IMG/VR virus record: IMGVR_UViG_3300045999_009115
Coordinates: 1 to 22,846 of that record
Reading direction: 5' to 3' (one strand)
Length of the DNA: 22,846 bases
DNA from: a virus
Position 1 is the stretch's first letter, and the number at the start of each line of letters is the position of its first letter. Both the position numbers and the translations under genes were made by a program. Positions 6,688 through 22,846 of the stretch are shown here, in pieces. The notes beneath the pieces were generated by a model that ran no database searches, had not been told where the DNA came from, and saw only the letters and a list, made by a program, of their open reading frames with translations.

Positions 6688-6998
6688 TTTGGGTCAATTT
6701 CACGATACTCCTCCAAAACCCAATTTGTTAACTTAGATATAAGATCCATGTCAAATTCTGGATTTACTTTCCATTCGTTTATAGCATCTTTATTTCCAAA
6801 TAGCAATTCAAAGAAGTAAAGATCATCATCTTCCCCTTTCTGTGAATTTCCAAGAGATGCAGAATCTCCTTGGATGTAAAGCATAGCTTGGTAAGGTAAT
6901 GTTGGTGGAAGCCTATAAGTCTTGCCAAATAGCGTAAATGCTGGGGCTACTGCACGACGTTCTTTAATATACTTATCAAAGTCAGTGATCTTTGCCAT
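6648..6998 (-). CDS. Tail assembly chaperone, short form (gpG-like)
   Basis: This 116-residue protein starts at ATG 6998 behind a strong AAGGAGG 7 nt upstream. It lies between the major tail-tube gene and the tape-measure gene, where long-tailed phages encode the chaperone that coats the tape-measure protein during tail assembly. The sequence is a small acidic helical protein (GEDDDLYFFELLFGN, then a helix around LTNWVLEEYREIDP) with no enzymatic motif. A slippery heptamer sits at codons 102-104 and the next frame is open beyond it, so a minority of ribosomes should make a longer form (see the 6409-6687 entry). The family assignment rests on position, size and the frameshift architecture rather than on a strong sequence signature. 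Confidence 0.85.
   Translation of the reverse strand: MAKITDFDKYIKERRAVAPAFTLFGKTYRLPPTLPYQAMLYIQGDSASLGNSQKGEDDDLYFFELLFGNKDAINEWKVNPEFDMDLISKLTNWVLEEYREIDPKLKTMKVNPEKAE
6687..6693 (-). promoter_or_regulatory. -1 programmed ribosomal frameshift site, C CCA AAA
   Basis: On the minus strand the bases are CCCAAAA, phased as C CCA AAA in the frame that starts at 6998 (CCA is codon 103, AAA is codon 104). This is a perfect X XXY YYZ slippery heptamer. Both tRNAs can re-pair after a one-base backward slip as CCC AAA, and reading then continues ATT GAA GAC in the open -1 frame to the stop at 6409. Conserved -1 (sometimes -2) frameshifting in this gene pair is well established for long-tailed phages. 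I did not identify a definite downstream pseudoknot. Confidence 0.88.
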
Positions 6999-15472: not shown

Positions 15473-15853
15473 ATGTCAACTTACGTAAAAGTTATAGACT
15501 TTAGTGTAAACGCTATGTTAGTAATTAAAGAAACATTTGCATTAGATTACGATATGATTGACTTTAATAAAGAATTTATATATTCTATAGGTACTACTGA
15601 TGTTAGAAAAGATCATTGTAAACATAATATTATAGGATTTATTAAAACTTTAAAGAAAGATTTATTAAATAGACGTCAAGTAAGTGAAGTAATTATTAGT
15701 AATGAATTAGAATACGTAAAGTTTAATTACCCCATGTTAAACTTTACACTATATAATAATAAAGAATACTATATTGAGATTAGTTCAAAATCTGTTGAAT
15801 TAGGTTTTATCAAGTCAGGTACGTTAACTTCTGTAAGATCTTATACAAAGTAA
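15473..15853 (+). CDS. Uncharacterised small protein, first gene of the rightward operon
   Basis: This 126-residue protein starts at ATG 15473 behind a strong AGGAGG. The family is not recognised. It is lysine- and isoleucine-rich with alternating strands (TYVKVIDFSVNAMLVI, EVIISNELEYVKFNYPMLNFTLY, YYIEISSKSVELGFI) and one central basic helix (NIIGFIKTLKKDLLNRR). No catalytic motif, signal peptide or membrane segment is visible. As the first gene after a strong regulated promoter, it could be an early or regulatory protein. The very AT-rich codon use is like that of the adjacent regulator. Confidence 0.7.
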   Translation: MSTYVKVIDFSVNAMLVIKETFALDYDMIDFNKEFIYSIGTTDVRKDHCKHNIIGFIKTLKKDLLNRRQVSEVIISNELEYVKFNYPMLNFTLYNNKEYYIEISSKSVELGFIKSGTLTSVRSYTK

Positions 15854-17059: not shown

Positions 17060-18985
17060 GTGTCGGTTTTTACAGAGTTTAATCAGGAGTTTTTAGATAA
17101 ATACGATCCAAAAGATATTCCATGGGGGTTTAATGGTTTAGGTTATATTGTCTATAAACGCACATACGCTCGTGTTCTAGAGGACGGTTCAGGCACTGAA
17201 GAGTGGAAAGATACAATTGTACGTGCAATTAAAGGAGCTCAAGCAATTGGAGCAGGGTACACGCAAGACGAAGCTGAACGTATGTTTGACCATTTGTTCA
17301 ACCTACGTGGCACGTTCAGTGGTCGTGCACTTTGGCAACTTGGTACAAAGCTTGCACTTAACTATGGCGATTCGCTGAATAACTGCTGGACAGTGTCAAT
17401 TCGCAAGCCAAAAGACTTTTTGTTTATTTTCGACGAGCTTATGATGGGTGGTGGCGTCGGCTATAGTGTAAAACGTGCTGATATCAATGAGCTTCCTAAG
17501 GTAAAGAAAGGCGTTACAGTTACACACGCTGCTAGTAACGATGCTGATTTTATTGTACCAGACAGTCGTGAGGGCTGGGTTAAACTGCTAAAGCAAGTAC
17601 TAGATGCGTACTTTGTAACAGGCAAGTCATTTACATTCTCAACAATTCTTGTACGCGGCAAGGGTGAGCCCATTAAGGGATTTGGTGGTAAAGCTTCAGG
17701 GCCAATTCCACTTATTGAAGGAATGGGTAAGATTAGCAAAGTTCTTAAATCACGTGAAGGCAAAAAACTACGCAGCGTTGATGTACTTGATATTGCAAAT
17801 ATTATTGGTTCAATTGTAATTAGTGGTAATGTTCGTCGCTCTGCACAAATTGCTGTTGGTGACAGTGACGATATTCTTTACCTTCGTGCAAAGCGTTGGG
17901 ACTTGGGCAACATCCCCAACTGGCGTGCATTTTCTAACAACACAGTTGCAGCAGATTCTGCAGATTACTTAAGTGATGAATTCTGGGAAGGGTATAATGG
18001 AAATGGAGAACCGTATGGACTCTTCAATCAGCGCCTATCTCAAGAACAAGGGCGTCTTGGGGAACGTATCGAAGATAAATGTGAACTGCCCAATCCGTGC
18101 GCAGAGCAAATTCTTGAATCTTACGAGAGTTGCAACCTCGCTGAAATCTATCTCCCGAACGTTCGAACAGTAGAGCAGTTTAAAGATGTTGCTATGTTGC
18201 TGTACAAGACATGCAAAGCTATTACTCGTATGGAGTACCTGTATGAGGAGACTAATGAAGTTATTCACCGTAACTCACGAATTGGGATTGGTATTACGGG
18301 TATTGTTGAATCGCTTGACAAGCTAGAGAACTGGGCTGATGCTGTATACAAGCATCTGCGAGAGTTTGATGCAGAGTGGAGCGATCTAAACAAAACCACC
18401 CGCAGCATTAAGCTTACGACAGTTAAGCCAAGTGGAACGCTTTCACTACTTGCAGGCGTTACACCCGGCGTTCACCCTGCCTATGCAAAGTACTACATTC
18501 GCCGTGTTCGCATGGCCAGTGACGATGCGCTTGTCGAATACTGCCGCAGCAAAGGCTATGACGTAGAGTACGCCCGTAACTTTGATGGCTCGACCGATTA
18601 CAACACGTCAATCGTGTCATTTCCTGCTAAGAGCAGCAATAACGCAATTCTGGCAAAAAACATGAGTGCGATTCGCCAGCTTGAACTTGTCAAGCTCGCA
18701 CAGACACTTTGGAGTGACAGCAGCGTGTCAGTGACCGTGTACTATCGCTTCGAAGAGCTGCCAGCTATTAAGCAGTGGCTTGAAGAGAATTATGAAACAA
18801 GTGTGAAATCTGTGTCGTTCCTACTGCACAGCGATCACGGCTTTGATCAGGCACCTTATGAGGAAATTACCAAAGAGTTGTATGATGAGTTGGCGGCTAG
18901 GGTCAAAGTGGCTGACGCTTATACAATGAGCGGCGACATGCTCAGCATTGAGGATTGTGAGGGCGGGGCTTGCCCAGTACGATAG
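17060..18985 (+). CDS. nrdJ: Adenosylcobalamin-dependent (class II) ribonucleoside-triphosphate reductase
   Basis: This 641-residue enzyme starts at GTG 17060 behind GAAAGG. It reduces ribonucleoside triphosphates to deoxy forms using a B12-generated thiyl radical. Key residues are visible with the spacing of the Lactobacillus leichmannii enzyme: C109 (LNNCWTVSI) as one redox cysteine, N345-P-C347-A-E349 as thiyl site and acid, and C358 (SCNLAEI) as the second redox cysteine, 11 residues after C347. The C-terminal shuttle pair is C633-x4-C638 (CEGGACP). The glycine-rich segment GGGVGYSVKRAD is also typical. At 641 residues it is shorter than the roughly 740-residue bacterial form. The 3' half is noticeably less AT-rich than the 5' part and the flanking genes. 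It depends on host cobalamin and thioredoxin. Confidence 0.95.
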   Translation: MSVFTEFNQEFLDKYDPKDIPWGFNGLGYIVYKRTYARVLEDGSGTEEWKDTIVRAIKGAQAIGAGYTQDEAERMFDHLFNLRGTFSGRALWQLGTKLALNYGDSLNNCWTVSIRKPKDFLFIFDELMMGGGVGYSVKRADINELPKVKKGVTVTHAASNDADFIVPDSREGWVKLLKQVLDAYFVTGKSFTFSTILVRGKGEPIKGFGGKASGPIPLIEGMGKISKVLKSREGKKLRSVDVLDIANIIGSIVISGNVRRSAQIAVGDSDDILYLRAKRWDLGNIPNWRAFSNNTVAADSADYLSDEFWEGYNGNGEPYGLFNQRLSQEQGRLGERIEDKCELPNPCAEQILESYESCNLAEIYLPNVRTVEQFKDVAMLLYKTCKAITRMEYLYEETNEVIHRNSRIGIGITGIVESLDKLENWADAVYKHLREFDAEWSDLNKTTRSIKLTTVKPSGTLSLLAGVTPGVHPAYAKYYIRRVRMASDDALVEYCRSKGYDVEYARNFDGSTDYNTSIVSFPAKSSNNAILAKNMSAIRQLELVKLAQTLWSDSSVSVTVYYRFEELPAIKQWLEENYETSVKSVSFLLHSDHGFDQAPYEEITKELYDELAARVKVADAYTMSGDMLSIEDCEGGACPVR

Positions 18986-18997
18986 GAGGTTATGTAA

Positions 18998-19051
18998 ATG
19001 TGTAATTGTTGTGAAGTTTGTCCACTTTGTGGATGCTGCTCAGGGCGTTAA
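18998..19051 (+). CDS. 17-residue cysteine-rich peptide after nrdJ
   Basis: ATG 18998 follows AGGAGG by 8 nt, directly after the nrdJ stop, and opens MCNCCEVCPLCGCCSGR followed by TAA. Seven of 17 residues are cysteine (C2, C4, C5, C8, C11, C13, C14), arranged as CxCC, CxxC and CxCC. It is in the same frame as nrdJ, separated from it by TAG GAG GTT ATG TAA. The ribosome binding site is stronger than that of nrdJ itself. Possible roles are metal binding, a thiol donor or trap for the reductase C-terminal CxxxxC pair, or a remnant of a longer C-terminus. No precedent is known to me, and translation is not proven. Confidence 0.6.
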   Translation: MCNCCEVCPLCGCCSGR

Positions 19052-19066
19052 CTTTAATCATACTAA

Positions 19067-19092
19067 TGGGCTTCTCTTTAAAGAGAAGCCCA
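19067..19092 (+). terminator. 26-bp perfect palindrome, hairpin between the RNR and terminase genes
   Basis: Positions 19067-19079 and 19080-19092 are exact inverted copies (arm TGGGCTTCTCTTT). As RNA this makes an 11-bp stem with a TTAA loop. The exit sequence on the plus strand is ACGTTATTATAA, without a proper U-run, so it is a weak terminator, an RNase or transcript-end stabiliser, or a processing site. It lies 16 bp after the cysteine-rich peptide and 23 bp before the small terminase gene, so it marks the boundary of the nucleotide-metabolism segment. Confidence 0.6.
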
Positions 19093-19114: not shown

Positions 19115-19735
19115 ATGGATTTTAAACAACGCTATAAAGAGCTTTGGGTGCAGTATGAACAAGCTTATGATTTATCAACTTTAAATGACGCAAATGATAA
19201 ATCTAATCTTGAAATGATTATTAGAAATGCTGCACTTATTGAATTGCTTCAAGAAAAGGTTACAGAGCTTGCAGAAGATGACGCTGCTGGTAATATTATG
19301 GAAATTAAAAAGATCTCTGATAGCGTTAGAGATTTAACAGATCGTAATATACAGCTTGAACGTCAATTAGGAATTGATCGAAAGTCACGTAAAAAAGATA
19401 ACGAGACTACTACAGCTGAGTATATTTTAATGTTAAAAAGTGCAGCTCAAGAGTTTATCGAGCGACGTATTATTAAAGTATATTGTCCTGATTGTAAAAT
19501 CATGGTTGGTAGGATTAGTCCAGTTCATGAACATACTGCATTTAACGCTTATTTTAAATGTAGTCAGTGTGAAAAGTTATCCATAATTGGAAGAACCGAC
19601 AGAGATGTATTCTTTGACCTTGAAAAGAACGACAGAGATTGGAGACGTAAGTACCCAATTGAGATAAAACATCCTAAAAAATCTAAAGCTGGTGAAATAG
19701 GTATTGAACCAGAGTTAATGATAGAGGACGAATAA
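19115..19735 (+). CDS. terS: Probable terminase small subunit with C-terminal zinc ribbon
   Basis: This 206-residue protein starts at ATG 19115 behind AAAAGG and ends one base before terL. Residues 30-95 are helical (IIRNAALIELLQEKVTELAE) and end in QLERQLGIDRKSRKK, a pattern I know from small terminase subunits of several phages. Residues about 100-118 are another helix. A zinc ribbon follows: C124-P-D-C127 and C149-S-Q-C152. The tail is charged and ends in acidic residues. Small terminases recognise the packaging site and stimulate the large subunit. The gene order terS-terL supports this. A zinc ribbon in this position is unusual but suits DNA binding. The identification is moderate because no classical N-terminal HTH is evident. 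Confidence 0.65.
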   Translation: MDFKQRYKELWVQYEQAYDLSTLNDANDKSNLEMIIRNAALIELLQEKVTELAEDDAAGNIMEIKKISDSVRDLTDRNIQLERQLGIDRKSRKKDNETTTAEYILMLKSAAQEFIERRIIKVYCPDCKIMVGRISPVHEHTAFNAYFKCSQCEKLSIIGRTDRDVFFDLEKNDRDWRRKYPIEIKHPKKSKAGEIGIEPELMIEDE

Positions 19736-19736
19736 A

Positions 19737-21863
19737 ATGGCGCTTAGAGAGAAATTAACAGAGGCTGAATTAGATTTAGTTGAAGTTTTAGAAGATCCTA
19801 TATTCTTTAGTGAATTTATGAGATCTACCAGAGATGCATCTCCAATTAAATCAATGTGGCCTAAGCAGGAGTTTAAATACAGGTGGTATCAAAGAGATCT
19901 TATTACAGACCAAAATGAATATGTAGTGCTTACAGGTGGTCGTGCAGTTGGAAAGTGTCAACCTGCAAGTTCTAAAGTTTACACAACTAAAGGTTATAAA
20001 TCAATTTATAAACTTTATAAAGACGGAGGAATTTTTGAAGTTTGGGCTAGGAATAACTTTGGAAACTTTGTCCAACGCAGAGCTGCTATTGTAAAAGATA
20101 AAAGAACCGATGTTTACGAAATTAAAACAGAATCTGGATATAGTATAAAAGGAACAGCAAATCATCCTATACTTACCACTCAGGACTATGTTAACATAGA
20201 AGACCTTAAAGCTGGGGATAATGTCATAGTAACAACTAAACTTCCATGGAATAGTAGTCAATCACTCTGGAGGAGTGCAGAGTTACGATTTTTAGGTTAT
20301 AGGTTCTTTGACCATAGGTGGTTTGTTGAAATACCATTTAAACCTCGTTTTAAAGCTATAGAAATTGATTATAAAAATATAGCTGAAGAGTTAAAGTTAA
20401 AATGGGTTCATAAAGGCGATCAAGTTACAATAGTAAGACCACAAGATCATAAAGGGAAAAATCCAATAGTTTATGCTGCTATTCAATTAAACTGGATTAG
20501 ACTTTACGAAGCTTCTAATATGAGCTCATACCCAAAGCATGTTCCTGAAACTTTAATGAACGAGAATATTAATAACATAAAGTTATTTCTAGAATCTCTA
20601 ATGTCGCAATGGGGTGAGTTTAAATCTAGTAAAGAGGTAAGACTTCAATGCAACTTTGAAAAAACTGCTTTAACATTTCAAGAGTTATTTCAACGTTGTG
20701 GGGTTGAAATGATGATAGATGGTACAGCATTAGTTAATGCTACTCCTGAAGCCGCATCTTACTTTTATGCTACATTTGATCTTCAAGGAGTTGCAACTAA
20801 TGTCAAAGCTCCTGTAATACCTGAAACTAGACCTGATAAGATAGTGTCAATAGAGAAAGTTCATGAGTTTGTTAAAACATATGCATTATATGTTTACGAC
20901 GATCATAACTATATATCAGGTAATATCTGTTGTCACAACTCCCTTGTATTAGAAGATAAGCAAATGTTTGACATTATGAATCAAGATTTTCAGCTTCCTG
21001 ATACTAAAGAATTGTTGATTACCACACCAAATCAAGCCCAGCTTGAACCTATTTATGGAAGGTTAATTACAAGAGTAACAACTTCTCCATTAACAAAAGA
21101 CTTTTTACAAAATCGTATTAATCGAAGCCTCGGAACAATGGATTTTAGATTTAATGGAATTCAAGTAATGCATAGAGCTCGTATTGCGGGTACTAAAGAA
21201 AGCAATCTAGTAGGCTTGCACATTCCTCGTGCAATCCTAGACGAAGGTCAGCTTTACCCAACATCTGCACTTACTCAATTAACACCAGCTCTAAATGTTT
21301 GGGAAAAGAATGTTCAATTCTTTGTAGCAGGCGTTCCAAATGGACTTAGAAACAGTGCACTTTATACAACTTCATCTAAATTACCTAGATTTAAATGGTA
21401 TCGAGTGCCGTCTGCTAATAATCCATTTTTTAGCAAAGATGACTACTTAGATGCGCTGAGGCGCTATGGTGGTGAAGATAGTGATGAATTTCAACAACTA
21501 ATCTTAGGAAAGCATGGAACAGCAGCGCTGAGCGTTATTCATAGGGATCAAATATTACAAAAATCTTATGAATTTTATTCATACAGGTACTCTAATTCTG
21601 AAGTTGATAAAGGTATACCATTTAATCAATTTTTAGACCGTCATGAGTTTGGAAATCCATCAGCTGTAATAGCAGCAATTGATACAGGTTTCACAGATCC
21701 AACTATTATTAGCATTTTAGGTTTTATTGATAATAAACGTTGGAGATACCTAGCACGGTATAAAGTTCAAAGAGTACCATTCCCCATACAAGAAGAAATA
21801 ATCGACTGGCTTGATGATTTTTATAAATTTGATCAAATTGCCATCGACATTGGGGCAGGGGGT
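19737..21863 (+). CDS. terL: Terminase large subunit, exon 1 (contains an intein)
   Basis: ATG 19737 is one base after the small subunit stop. The packaging motor ATPase shows Walker A GGRAVGK (67-73) continuing with S402 after the intein, Walker B AILDEGQ (D502, E503), and the nuclease motifs AAIDTGFTDPT (D649, D654) and IAIDIGAGG (D704). Exon 1 ends exactly at codon 709, base 21863. Unspliced translation would add RQHCSL and stop at 21884 inside the intron. After intron removal the frame continues at 22692. The mature protein thus needs RNA splicing and protein splicing. Removing the 328-residue intein leaves 381 residues from exon 1 plus exon 2, and the full length lies beyond the right edge. 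Confidence 0.93.
19956..20939 (+). mobile_element. Intein in the TerL Walker A P-loop, with degenerate LAGLIDADG endonuclease domain
   Basis: The 328-residue insertion occupies TerL residues 74-401. It starts with Cys74 (CQPASSKVYTTKGY, block A). Block B is GTANHPI with H143, block F is VYDDHNYISGN (387-396 region), and it ends with H400-N401 before Ser402. These are the residues needed for protein splicing, so the domain appears active. The middle (about residues 165-365) resembles a LAGLIDADG endonuclease: first motif FLGYRFFDH (185-193, D192), second motif FLESLMSQWG (284-293), where the usual acidic catalytic residue is replaced (W292 in the Asp position). The endonuclease is probably inactive. 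The insertion site is between GK and S of the P-loop, the most conserved point of the gene. Confidence 0.9.
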
Positions 21864-22691
21864 AGACAACATTGCTCCCTTTAAATCTAACTAACACGGC
21901 GAAAGTCCCACTGGGATAACACCGTTCCGAGCTATTAAGCAGGAGTAGAGACTATGAGCAAACAAGCGCTAAAGGTTTTGTACGCATGTATGTTGGGTGA
22001 TGGCTACACCAGTAAGCCAATTAATAGATCTTGTAGATTTAGCATTAAGCAAAGACATGATCACAGAGACCATCTAGAATATCTAGAAGATCAACTAAAC
22101 CATTTGACCACATTTCACTGGAGAGATATTCCACCTCAGGAGTACACTATTCGTGGAAAGCCTGTAAAAAGTCAAAGACTTTTTGAAATTAGAAGTAAGT
22201 ATCATCCAATTTTTACAGAAGTTCGATATAAGGCTTATATGGATGGTCATAAAGTAGTTGATCCACACATGCTTACATTTTTGGACGCAGAGTTTCTTGC
22301 AATCTGGTATCAGCAAGATGGTTATATGCATCGCATTAGGGATTCTAAAAACCCGACACCCGGTGTCGTACTCTGCACAGATCGTTTTTCATACGCTGAT
22401 CATGAGTTATTAAGACGTGCCATAATTGAACGAACTGGTTTTATTTTTAACATTCAAAGATTTGCTAAAAGTAAAGCAGGTCATCAAATGTATAGATTGC
22501 ACATGACTCGAAAACAAACAGATCAGTTTTTTGAATACGTTCGTCCTCACATTCAACCTTCGTTTGAATATAAAATCACACGTTAGAACGAGATTCTTCA
22601 CTCGTAAGAAATAGTCCGAACTGCATAGCAATATGCAGAGACTGGCAGAAATGATCAGTCCATGTGCCTAGCACATAGTAACAATACATTG
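21864..22691 (+). mobile_element. Group I intron in terL with readable core and splice sites
   Basis: The 828-nt element begins after exon ...AGGGGGT. P1: that exon end pairs with GCTCCCT (21874-21880), including the required U-G at the splice site. P10: CATT (21870-21873) pairs with the first exon 2 bases GGTG. P3: TCTAAC (21886-21891) with GTTAGA (22582-22587). P4: ACGG with CCGT (21922-21925). P5: TCCC/GGGA. P7: GACTA (21950-21954) with TAGTC (22612-22616). The R-like segment GTAGAGACTA is not standard in every base. The S-like segment is AAGAAATAGTCC. P8: ACGAG/CTCGT. Three further hairpins follow, and the element ends in G at 22691. The open frame lies between P7 5' and P3 3', where group IA introns carry P7.1/P7.2. 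The exon frame is restored exactly. Confidence 0.9.
21954..22586 (+). CDS. LAGLIDADG homing endonuclease encoded in the group I intron
   Basis: This 210-residue protein starts at ATG 21954 with AGGAG 8 nt upstream. It has two LAGLIDADG-type motifs: LYACMLGDGYT (D16) near the N-terminus and FLAIWYQQDGYM (D122) in the middle, in the manner of the LAGLIDADG_2 (PF03161-like) family. It continues with LCTDRFSYADHELLRRAI and ends IQPSFEYKITR. Both acidic residues are present, so it looks catalytically competent, making a staggered cut in intron-less terL to spread the intron. The A of the start codon is the last base of the P7 5' strand, and the stop codon lies in the P3 3' strand. A folded intron core should therefore hide the start region. 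An added maturase role is possible but not shown. Confidence 0.9.
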   Translation: MSKQALKVLYACMLGDGYTSKPINRSCRFSIKQRHDHRDHLEYLEDQLNHLTTFHWRDIPPQEYTIRGKPVKSQRLFEIRSKYHPIFTEVRYKAYMDGHKVVDPHMLTFLDAEFLAIWYQQDGYMHRIRDSKNPTPGVVLCTDRFSYADHELLRRAIIERTGFIFNIQRFAKSKAGHQMYRLHMTRKQTDQFFEYVRPHIQPSFEYKITR

Positions 22692-22846
22692 GGTGGCATT
22701 CAAATAATGCAGTCTTTGACTCAAAGAAATGAATATCAACATAAGAATTACGATAAGCGTATATTACCTGTTCAATTTGGTGAAAAGGTTACAGTTGGAT
22801 TTACAACTGAAGGCGAAGAGCTTGGAAGTACAGCAAAGTCTTATGG
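22692..22846 (+). CDS. terL: Terminase large subunit, exon 2 (continues beyond the right edge)
   Basis: Exon 2 starts GGT GGC ATT CAA and reads GGIQIMQSLTQRNEYQHKNY then DKRILPVQFGEKVTVG to the edge with no stop. Joined to exon 1 it gives IAIDIGAGG-GGIQIMQSL, a normal continuation of the TerL nuclease domain after its second acidic motif. The last two bases belong to an incomplete codon. Only a part of the C-terminal nuclease domain is in the window. Confidence 0.9.

Follow-up and report, generated by a model that had tools for sequence, protein, structure and literature searches.

The cysteine-rich zinc domain (CRD) of class II ribonucleotide reductases (RNRs; NrdJd / NrdJb) spans 150–220 aa and carries six cysteines at its end; in NrdJa+b it is a separate gene (nrdJb), and it is absent from NrdJm (Loderer 2017, PMC5704485). 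A characterised NrdJ of the monomeric type, from a Thermus phage, takes its electrons from host thioredoxin (PMC6459318). The stretch of viral DNA analysed here (the window; 22,846 nucleotides) contains an ORF directly after nrdJ that would encode a peptide of 17 residues, seven of them cysteines. Like the CRD, this peptide lies close to a class II reductase and has several CxxC-spaced cysteines. However, the CRD places six cysteines in 150–220 aa, whereas the window peptide has seven in 17 residues and follows an intact NrdJm. At this length, and next to an NrdJ that PF21995 marks as monomeric, it does not qualify as a CRD or NrdJb.

Two other kinds of cysteine-rich element bear comparison. 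Metallothioneins combine a very high cysteine content, CxC, CC and CxxC spacing and a lack of aromatic residues, all of which are seen in the predicted peptide, although the known ones are much longer than 17 residues. Polycysteine leader-ORF attenuators occur in mycobacteria. In these, a short ORF with many Cys codons stands upstream of a hairpin, as it does in the window. The window ORF is unlike them in that it is led by an SD, lies in the interior of an operon and is without competing RNA structure.

A cysteine-dense micro-ORF downstream of nrdJ

The relevant features of the window, all on the plus strand, are as follows.

17060–18985 (+): nrdJ, monomeric-type class II ribonucleotide reductase of 641 aa, with a GTG start and the C-terminus CEGGACPVR (PHROG 367, E 1e-135; PF02867, PF17975, PF21995)
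18984–18989 (+): ribosome binding site AGGAGG, which shares bases with the nrdJ stop, with ATG 8 nt further on; the motif is rare and start-associated in the window
18998–19051 (+): Cys-dense micro-ORF MCNCCEVCPLCGCCSGR, 17 aa with 7 Cys, stop included; based on the sequence, shuffles and class members elsewhere
19067–19092 (+): RNA hairpin (−18.2 kcal/mol) formed by a perfect 26-bp palindrome, separating the micro-ORF from the 206-aa gene and lacking a clear U-run
19115–19735 (+): conserved 206-aa gene before terL, with a CPxC..CSxCE motif and without a Pfam or PHROG match
19737–21884 (+): large terminase with intein, first part (PHROG 2; PF14890 intein)

The original prediction described a 17-residue peptide with seven cysteines at these coordinates, preceded by AGGAGG and an 8-nt spacer and starting 12 nt after nrdJ, and the sequence bears this out in every particular. 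It also described the micro-ORF as in frame with nrdJ. The frame is indeed the same, but two stops intervene, the TAG of nrdJ itself (18983–18985, which AGGAGG overlaps) and a TAA at 18995. Because of these two stops, the micro-ORF is a separate ORF, the shared frame means little, and simple readthrough or a frame fusion with nrdJ is rejected. AGGAGG occurs five times in the window, counting both strands; one copy lies inside the tape-measure gene, and the other three precede gene starts (at 15473 on the plus strand and at 6998 and 11336 on the minus strand), so the motif marks starts well in this genome.

In nine main genes of the window, Cys codons account for 20 of 4,783 codons (0.4%), compared to 7 of 17 in the micro-ORF. 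Dinucleotide shuffles of the 129-nt gap never reached seven cysteines in 20,000 trials and never produced an SD-led Cys-rich ORF in as many, and shuffles of the whole window yielded no ORF with at least seven Cys at a content of at least 40% (0/400). As an empirical background, 1.42 Mb of phage loci, fetched without selection for cysteine, contained no SD-led ORF of 10–45 aa in which Cys numbered five or more and made up 33% or more of the residues. By both measures, the micro-ORF exceeds chance.

The exact Cys frame, CxCCxxCPxCGCC, has no match in viral_contigs and 12 in genome_contigs, none of which is a similar micro-ORF. A looser Cys frame, which returned 110 stretches, was rejected; these were mostly low-complexity Cys repeats or pieces of long proteins. 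Because a homologue of the exact peptide was not found, selection on the window peptide is not measurable. A literature search, which misses most subscription journals, turned up no phage peptide of this kind.

Several neighbouring features deserve mention. The window NrdJ is, by its PF21995 insertion domain, of the monomeric type, and the 206-aa gene upstream of terL is possibly a small terminase. Among cultured phages, DNA-level comparison gave only weak nrdJ matches to the locus and no match to the 206-aa gene. Besides its intein, terL (19737–22844) seems to be split again by a LAGLIDADG ORF (21954–22586). The residues GAGG before this ORF and GIQIMQSL..KRILPVQF after it correspond to one unbroken stretch of the TerL of a related locus (L024), suggesting that the second split is an intron carrying a homing endonuclease. 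The nrdJ genes of five other loci (L018, L021, L157, L162 and L178) are broken up by inserts, and those in L021 and L178 code for a protein related to the LAGLIDADG product of the window.

Recurrent MCxCCxxC micro-ORFs in viral contigs

We scanned viral contigs for GGAG followed by 5–10 bases, ATG and then C-x-C-C-x-x-C. This pattern was taken from the window's own N-terminus, and the shared MCxCCxxC start of the matches is therefore by construction. The scan returned 62 stretches, chance matches among them. Cys-dense SD-led members include MCKCCKCCTCTCPECN, found in 14 contigs, and MCTCCEHCNGECICR, found in 12, along with MCSCCKCCN[ND]CC, MCDCCDCCNCCCK, MCKCCKCCNCTCCE, MCKCCDCCDCGCDC, MCKCCECCDCGCDCK, MCNCCDCCDCGCGCKS, MCKCCDCCDCDCGCNC, MCSCCIGCTCSCCVNHITD and MCNCCSECTCNCCMCCSNN. 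Class members have a good SD, 13–19 residues, the MCxCCxxC start and about 37–62% cysteine. Several begin 3–23 nt after the upstream gene (12 nt in the window), and others 47–498 nt after it.

The cysteines are not confined to the positions that the pattern dictates. At least three further Cys occupy pattern-free positions in 11 of 20 distinct peptides of 12–22 aa; the six-frame TGY rate of 3.3% predicts 0.11 such peptides. The window peptide has Cys at 3 of its 12 free positions, an excess that is modest when taken alone (P 0.006). It agrees with the class in its SD 5–10 nt before the ATG, its MCxCCxxC start, its length of 12–22 aa and its three further Cys, and like many other members it lies a few nt after the upstream gene. 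The Cys frame CxCCxxCx(1-2)CxCC is common to the window peptide and those of loci L230/L237 and L238. The CPxCG knuckle and the nrdJ neighbour are the window's alone; other class members are without either.

For the two large families, DNA divergence can be compared between contigs. It is 1.2% within the MCKCCKCCTCTCPECN micro-ORF versus 16% and 4% in the flanks, and 3.4% within the MCTCCEHCNGECICR micro-ORF versus 8.9% and 7.0% in the flanks. The differences within these micro-ORFs are synonymous, although peptide identity was itself the basis for forming the families; this introduces a bias and makes the argument supportive rather than proof. Residues other than Cys are conserved as well in the look-alike families. 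Conservation of the peptide between related contigs was thus seen for the families of L197 and L199 but not for the window.

The class members do not share a neighbouring gene. Adjacent genes encode NifU_N and Fe-S_biosyn proteins (L205), a phage lysozyme (L199), Hsp20 (L230) and DUF7207 (L197), and membrane proteins as well. At L205 (around 3577), the MCKCCKCCNCTCCE micro-ORF directly precedes phage-borne genes for NifU_N (IscU-like) and Fe-S_biosyn (IscA-like) proteins. At L199 (around 3043) and in 11 similar contigs, the MCTCCEHCNGECICR micro-ORF stands between the phage lysozyme gene and a small gene with a secreted-looking product, and a membrane-protein ORF lies upstream; this neighbourhood is probably a lysis cassette. 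In 398 sampled Pseudomonadota genomes, the pattern matched once, in an ORF that ends after two codons, and the parts examined of the cultured phages HTVC115P, Mosig and Melnitz contained no Cys-dense micro-ORF. Judged from these sequences, the class is recurrent and apparently unannotated.

The reading we favour, to which we assign an even chance of being correct, is that the micro-ORF encodes a real, translated, lineage-specific micropeptide that binds metal or thiols and belongs to this recurrent class, and that it is not part of NrdJ. The 54 bp at 18998–19051 would then be a micro-gene that this phage lineage acquired, or alone retained, between nrdJ and a conserved hairpin. Its product would most likely serve in the cytoplasm as a flexible thiolate ligand for a soft metal (Zn, Cu(I) or Fe, or else an Fe-S cluster) or would donate or buffer thiols on a small scale while the phage infects the cell, and may benefit the phage in either role. 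If translated, the micro-ORF would be among the shortest phage genes, with a cysteine density unlike that of the usual small proteins of phages. Were such a class to recur next to many kinds of gene, this would hint at something that infected cells need in general, be it the buffering of metals, a supply of thiols or Fe-S chemistry. A wider proposal, which we consider rather doubtful, is that unrelated phage groups encode metallothionein-like peptides of 13–19 residues, missed by annotation, that supply or buffer metal or thiols, with the copies next to nrdJ (window) and IscU/IscA (L205) serving metal or thiol enzymes brought by the phage.

The nrdJ–terL site in related phages

To find relatives of the locus, we aligned the 206-aa gene and searched with the alignment, which gave 46 loci, a few of them the same contigs as L025–L027. 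The order nrdJ – small gene – terL holds in all 46, and none has a Cys-rich ORF in the gap between nrdJ and the 206-aa gene. The syntenic nrdJ genes are of two kinds, one with ∼30% identity to the window's (most loci) and one with ∼54% (L025–L027). The Cys micro-ORF is likewise missing from 21 further nrdJ loci, which lie elsewhere in phage genomes and whose nrdJ is 50–56% similar to the window's, and from eight annotated phages with nrdJ. A search of nrdJ-downstream regions in relatives had been proposed along with the original prediction, with lack of conservation named as evidence against it; these regions hold no conserved Cys micro-ORF, and at the orthologous site conservation is indeed lacking.

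What the gaps share is a hairpin. Each of 26 distinct gaps in the relatives (71–128 nt) contains one strong hairpin, with z-scores of −2.4 to −8.2 and a median of about −5. Its onset is 17–38 nt after the nrdJ stop, compared to 81 nt in the window, and the added distance in the window matches the length of the SD plus the micro-ORF. Given that all relative gaps have the hairpin and none has the Cys ORF, the hairpin is, on this comparison of sequences, the conserved feature and the micro-ORF a lineage-specific addition. The gap hairpins (window 19067–19092; L024–L027 and L138–L182) are unrelated in sequence but occupy the same position, and only some have a T-rich tail; the element may act in processing or stability as well as in termination.

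Absence of the micro-ORF from all 46 orthologous and 21 other nrdJ loci, leaving one sequence only, is what would be seen if a T/G-rich insert between nrdJ and the hairpin happened, by chance or recently, to read as Cys behind a good SD, yielding an ORF that is maybe translated but functionless. Phages hold much orphan sequence, and many windows were presumably screened first, such that rare coincidences occur. Nevertheless, both backgrounds, from the shuffles and from the fetched phage loci, lie far below one, the SD agrees with the start signals of this genome, and look-alike peptides recur with Cys beyond the search pattern. We regard an ORF of this kind as possible, though on the unlikely side.

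The original prediction offered a thiol relay, a metal- or cobalt-binding peptide or a detached C-terminal tail as roles for the peptide; in the service of NrdJ, it would be a relay, a cobalamin-linked peptide or such a tail. A translated, Cys-dense micropeptide that probably binds metal or thiols is still our best guess, but a connection to NrdJ found no support. Although the micro-ORF adjoins nrdJ, 12 nt away, and NrdJ needs its C-terminal Cys pair reduced, a dedicated NrdJ partner is unsupported, because class members adjoin unrelated genes and all other nrdJ loci examined are without the peptide. The NrdJ of the window retains a CxxxxC pair of its own, and the Thermus phage NrdJm uses host thioredoxin (PMC6459318). 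A detached tail is unlikely in particular, given an NrdJ of the monomeric type with its own CEGGACPVR pair and a known Cys-rich domain that is 150–220 aa long and not found in NrdJm (PMC5704485). Overall, no role as an NrdJ partner is indicated, and we judge a peptide serving NrdJ to be improbable.

About as improbable is a Cys-sensing leader, in which scarce cysteine would stall ribosomes on the Cys codons and thereby alter the hairpin or expression of the downstream packaging genes. In its favour, the Cys codon run precedes a strong hairpin by 16 nt, the terminase genes follow, and the literature mentions leader ORFs of the polycysteine type in mycobacteria. Against it, constrained folding forms the hairpin at nine of nine simulated ribosome positions, and it takes at least 15.6 kcal/mol to block either arm of the hairpin; there is thus no competing RNA structure, and attenuation by a ribosome-driven switch is rejected. 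Relatives' gaps have the hairpin without the ORF, look-alike families conserve non-Cys residues too, and no Rfam family matches the window locus (nothing at gathering strength; two sub-threshold matches near E = 1). The micro-ORF is likely to be real and the lineage-specific micropeptide remains our preferred reading, and its interest lies less in the window's single copy than in the class as a whole and in a second micropeptide that is linked to nrdJ.

A second micropeptide linked to nrdJ

Outside the window, many nrdJ relatives are followed by an ORF of 13–35 aa with the core CW[IV]xQ[LM]YY[LF]. This ORF starts either overlapping the nrdJ stop or up to about 300 nt downstream, and it is seen at L001, L005–L011, L013–L015, L018, L019 and L259–L327. 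The shortest version is MSECWISQLYYFG, and the peptide has one cysteine. It is absent from the window, and PHROGs gave no match below E = 0.05 and hence no known family.

A pattern scan for the CW core, made independently of nrdJ, returned 69 new stretches (some contigs fetched twice). In 60 of these, nrdJ lies just upstream, and the rest consist mostly of truncated contigs and chance hits. In 37 distinct DNA sequences of the core, there is free variation at third codon positions and Ser appears as both AGY and TCN, while C, W, Q and the first Y never change; part of this invariance is fixed by the scan pattern, although nrdJ loci fetched by nrdJ similarity show the same. As far as codon usage can tell, this pattern shows selection on the CW micropeptide as a peptide, and from its genomic distribution the micropeptide is clearly nrdJ-linked in related phages. 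It is a better lead than the Cys peptide for a tiny NrdJ-associated partner, and it makes the question of whether phage NrdJ has such a partner directly testable in other phages. At L010, L011, L013 and L014, an extra small ORF containing CYKCGRKHCECHLY, which has zinc-binding spacing, lies between nrdJ and the CW micropeptide.
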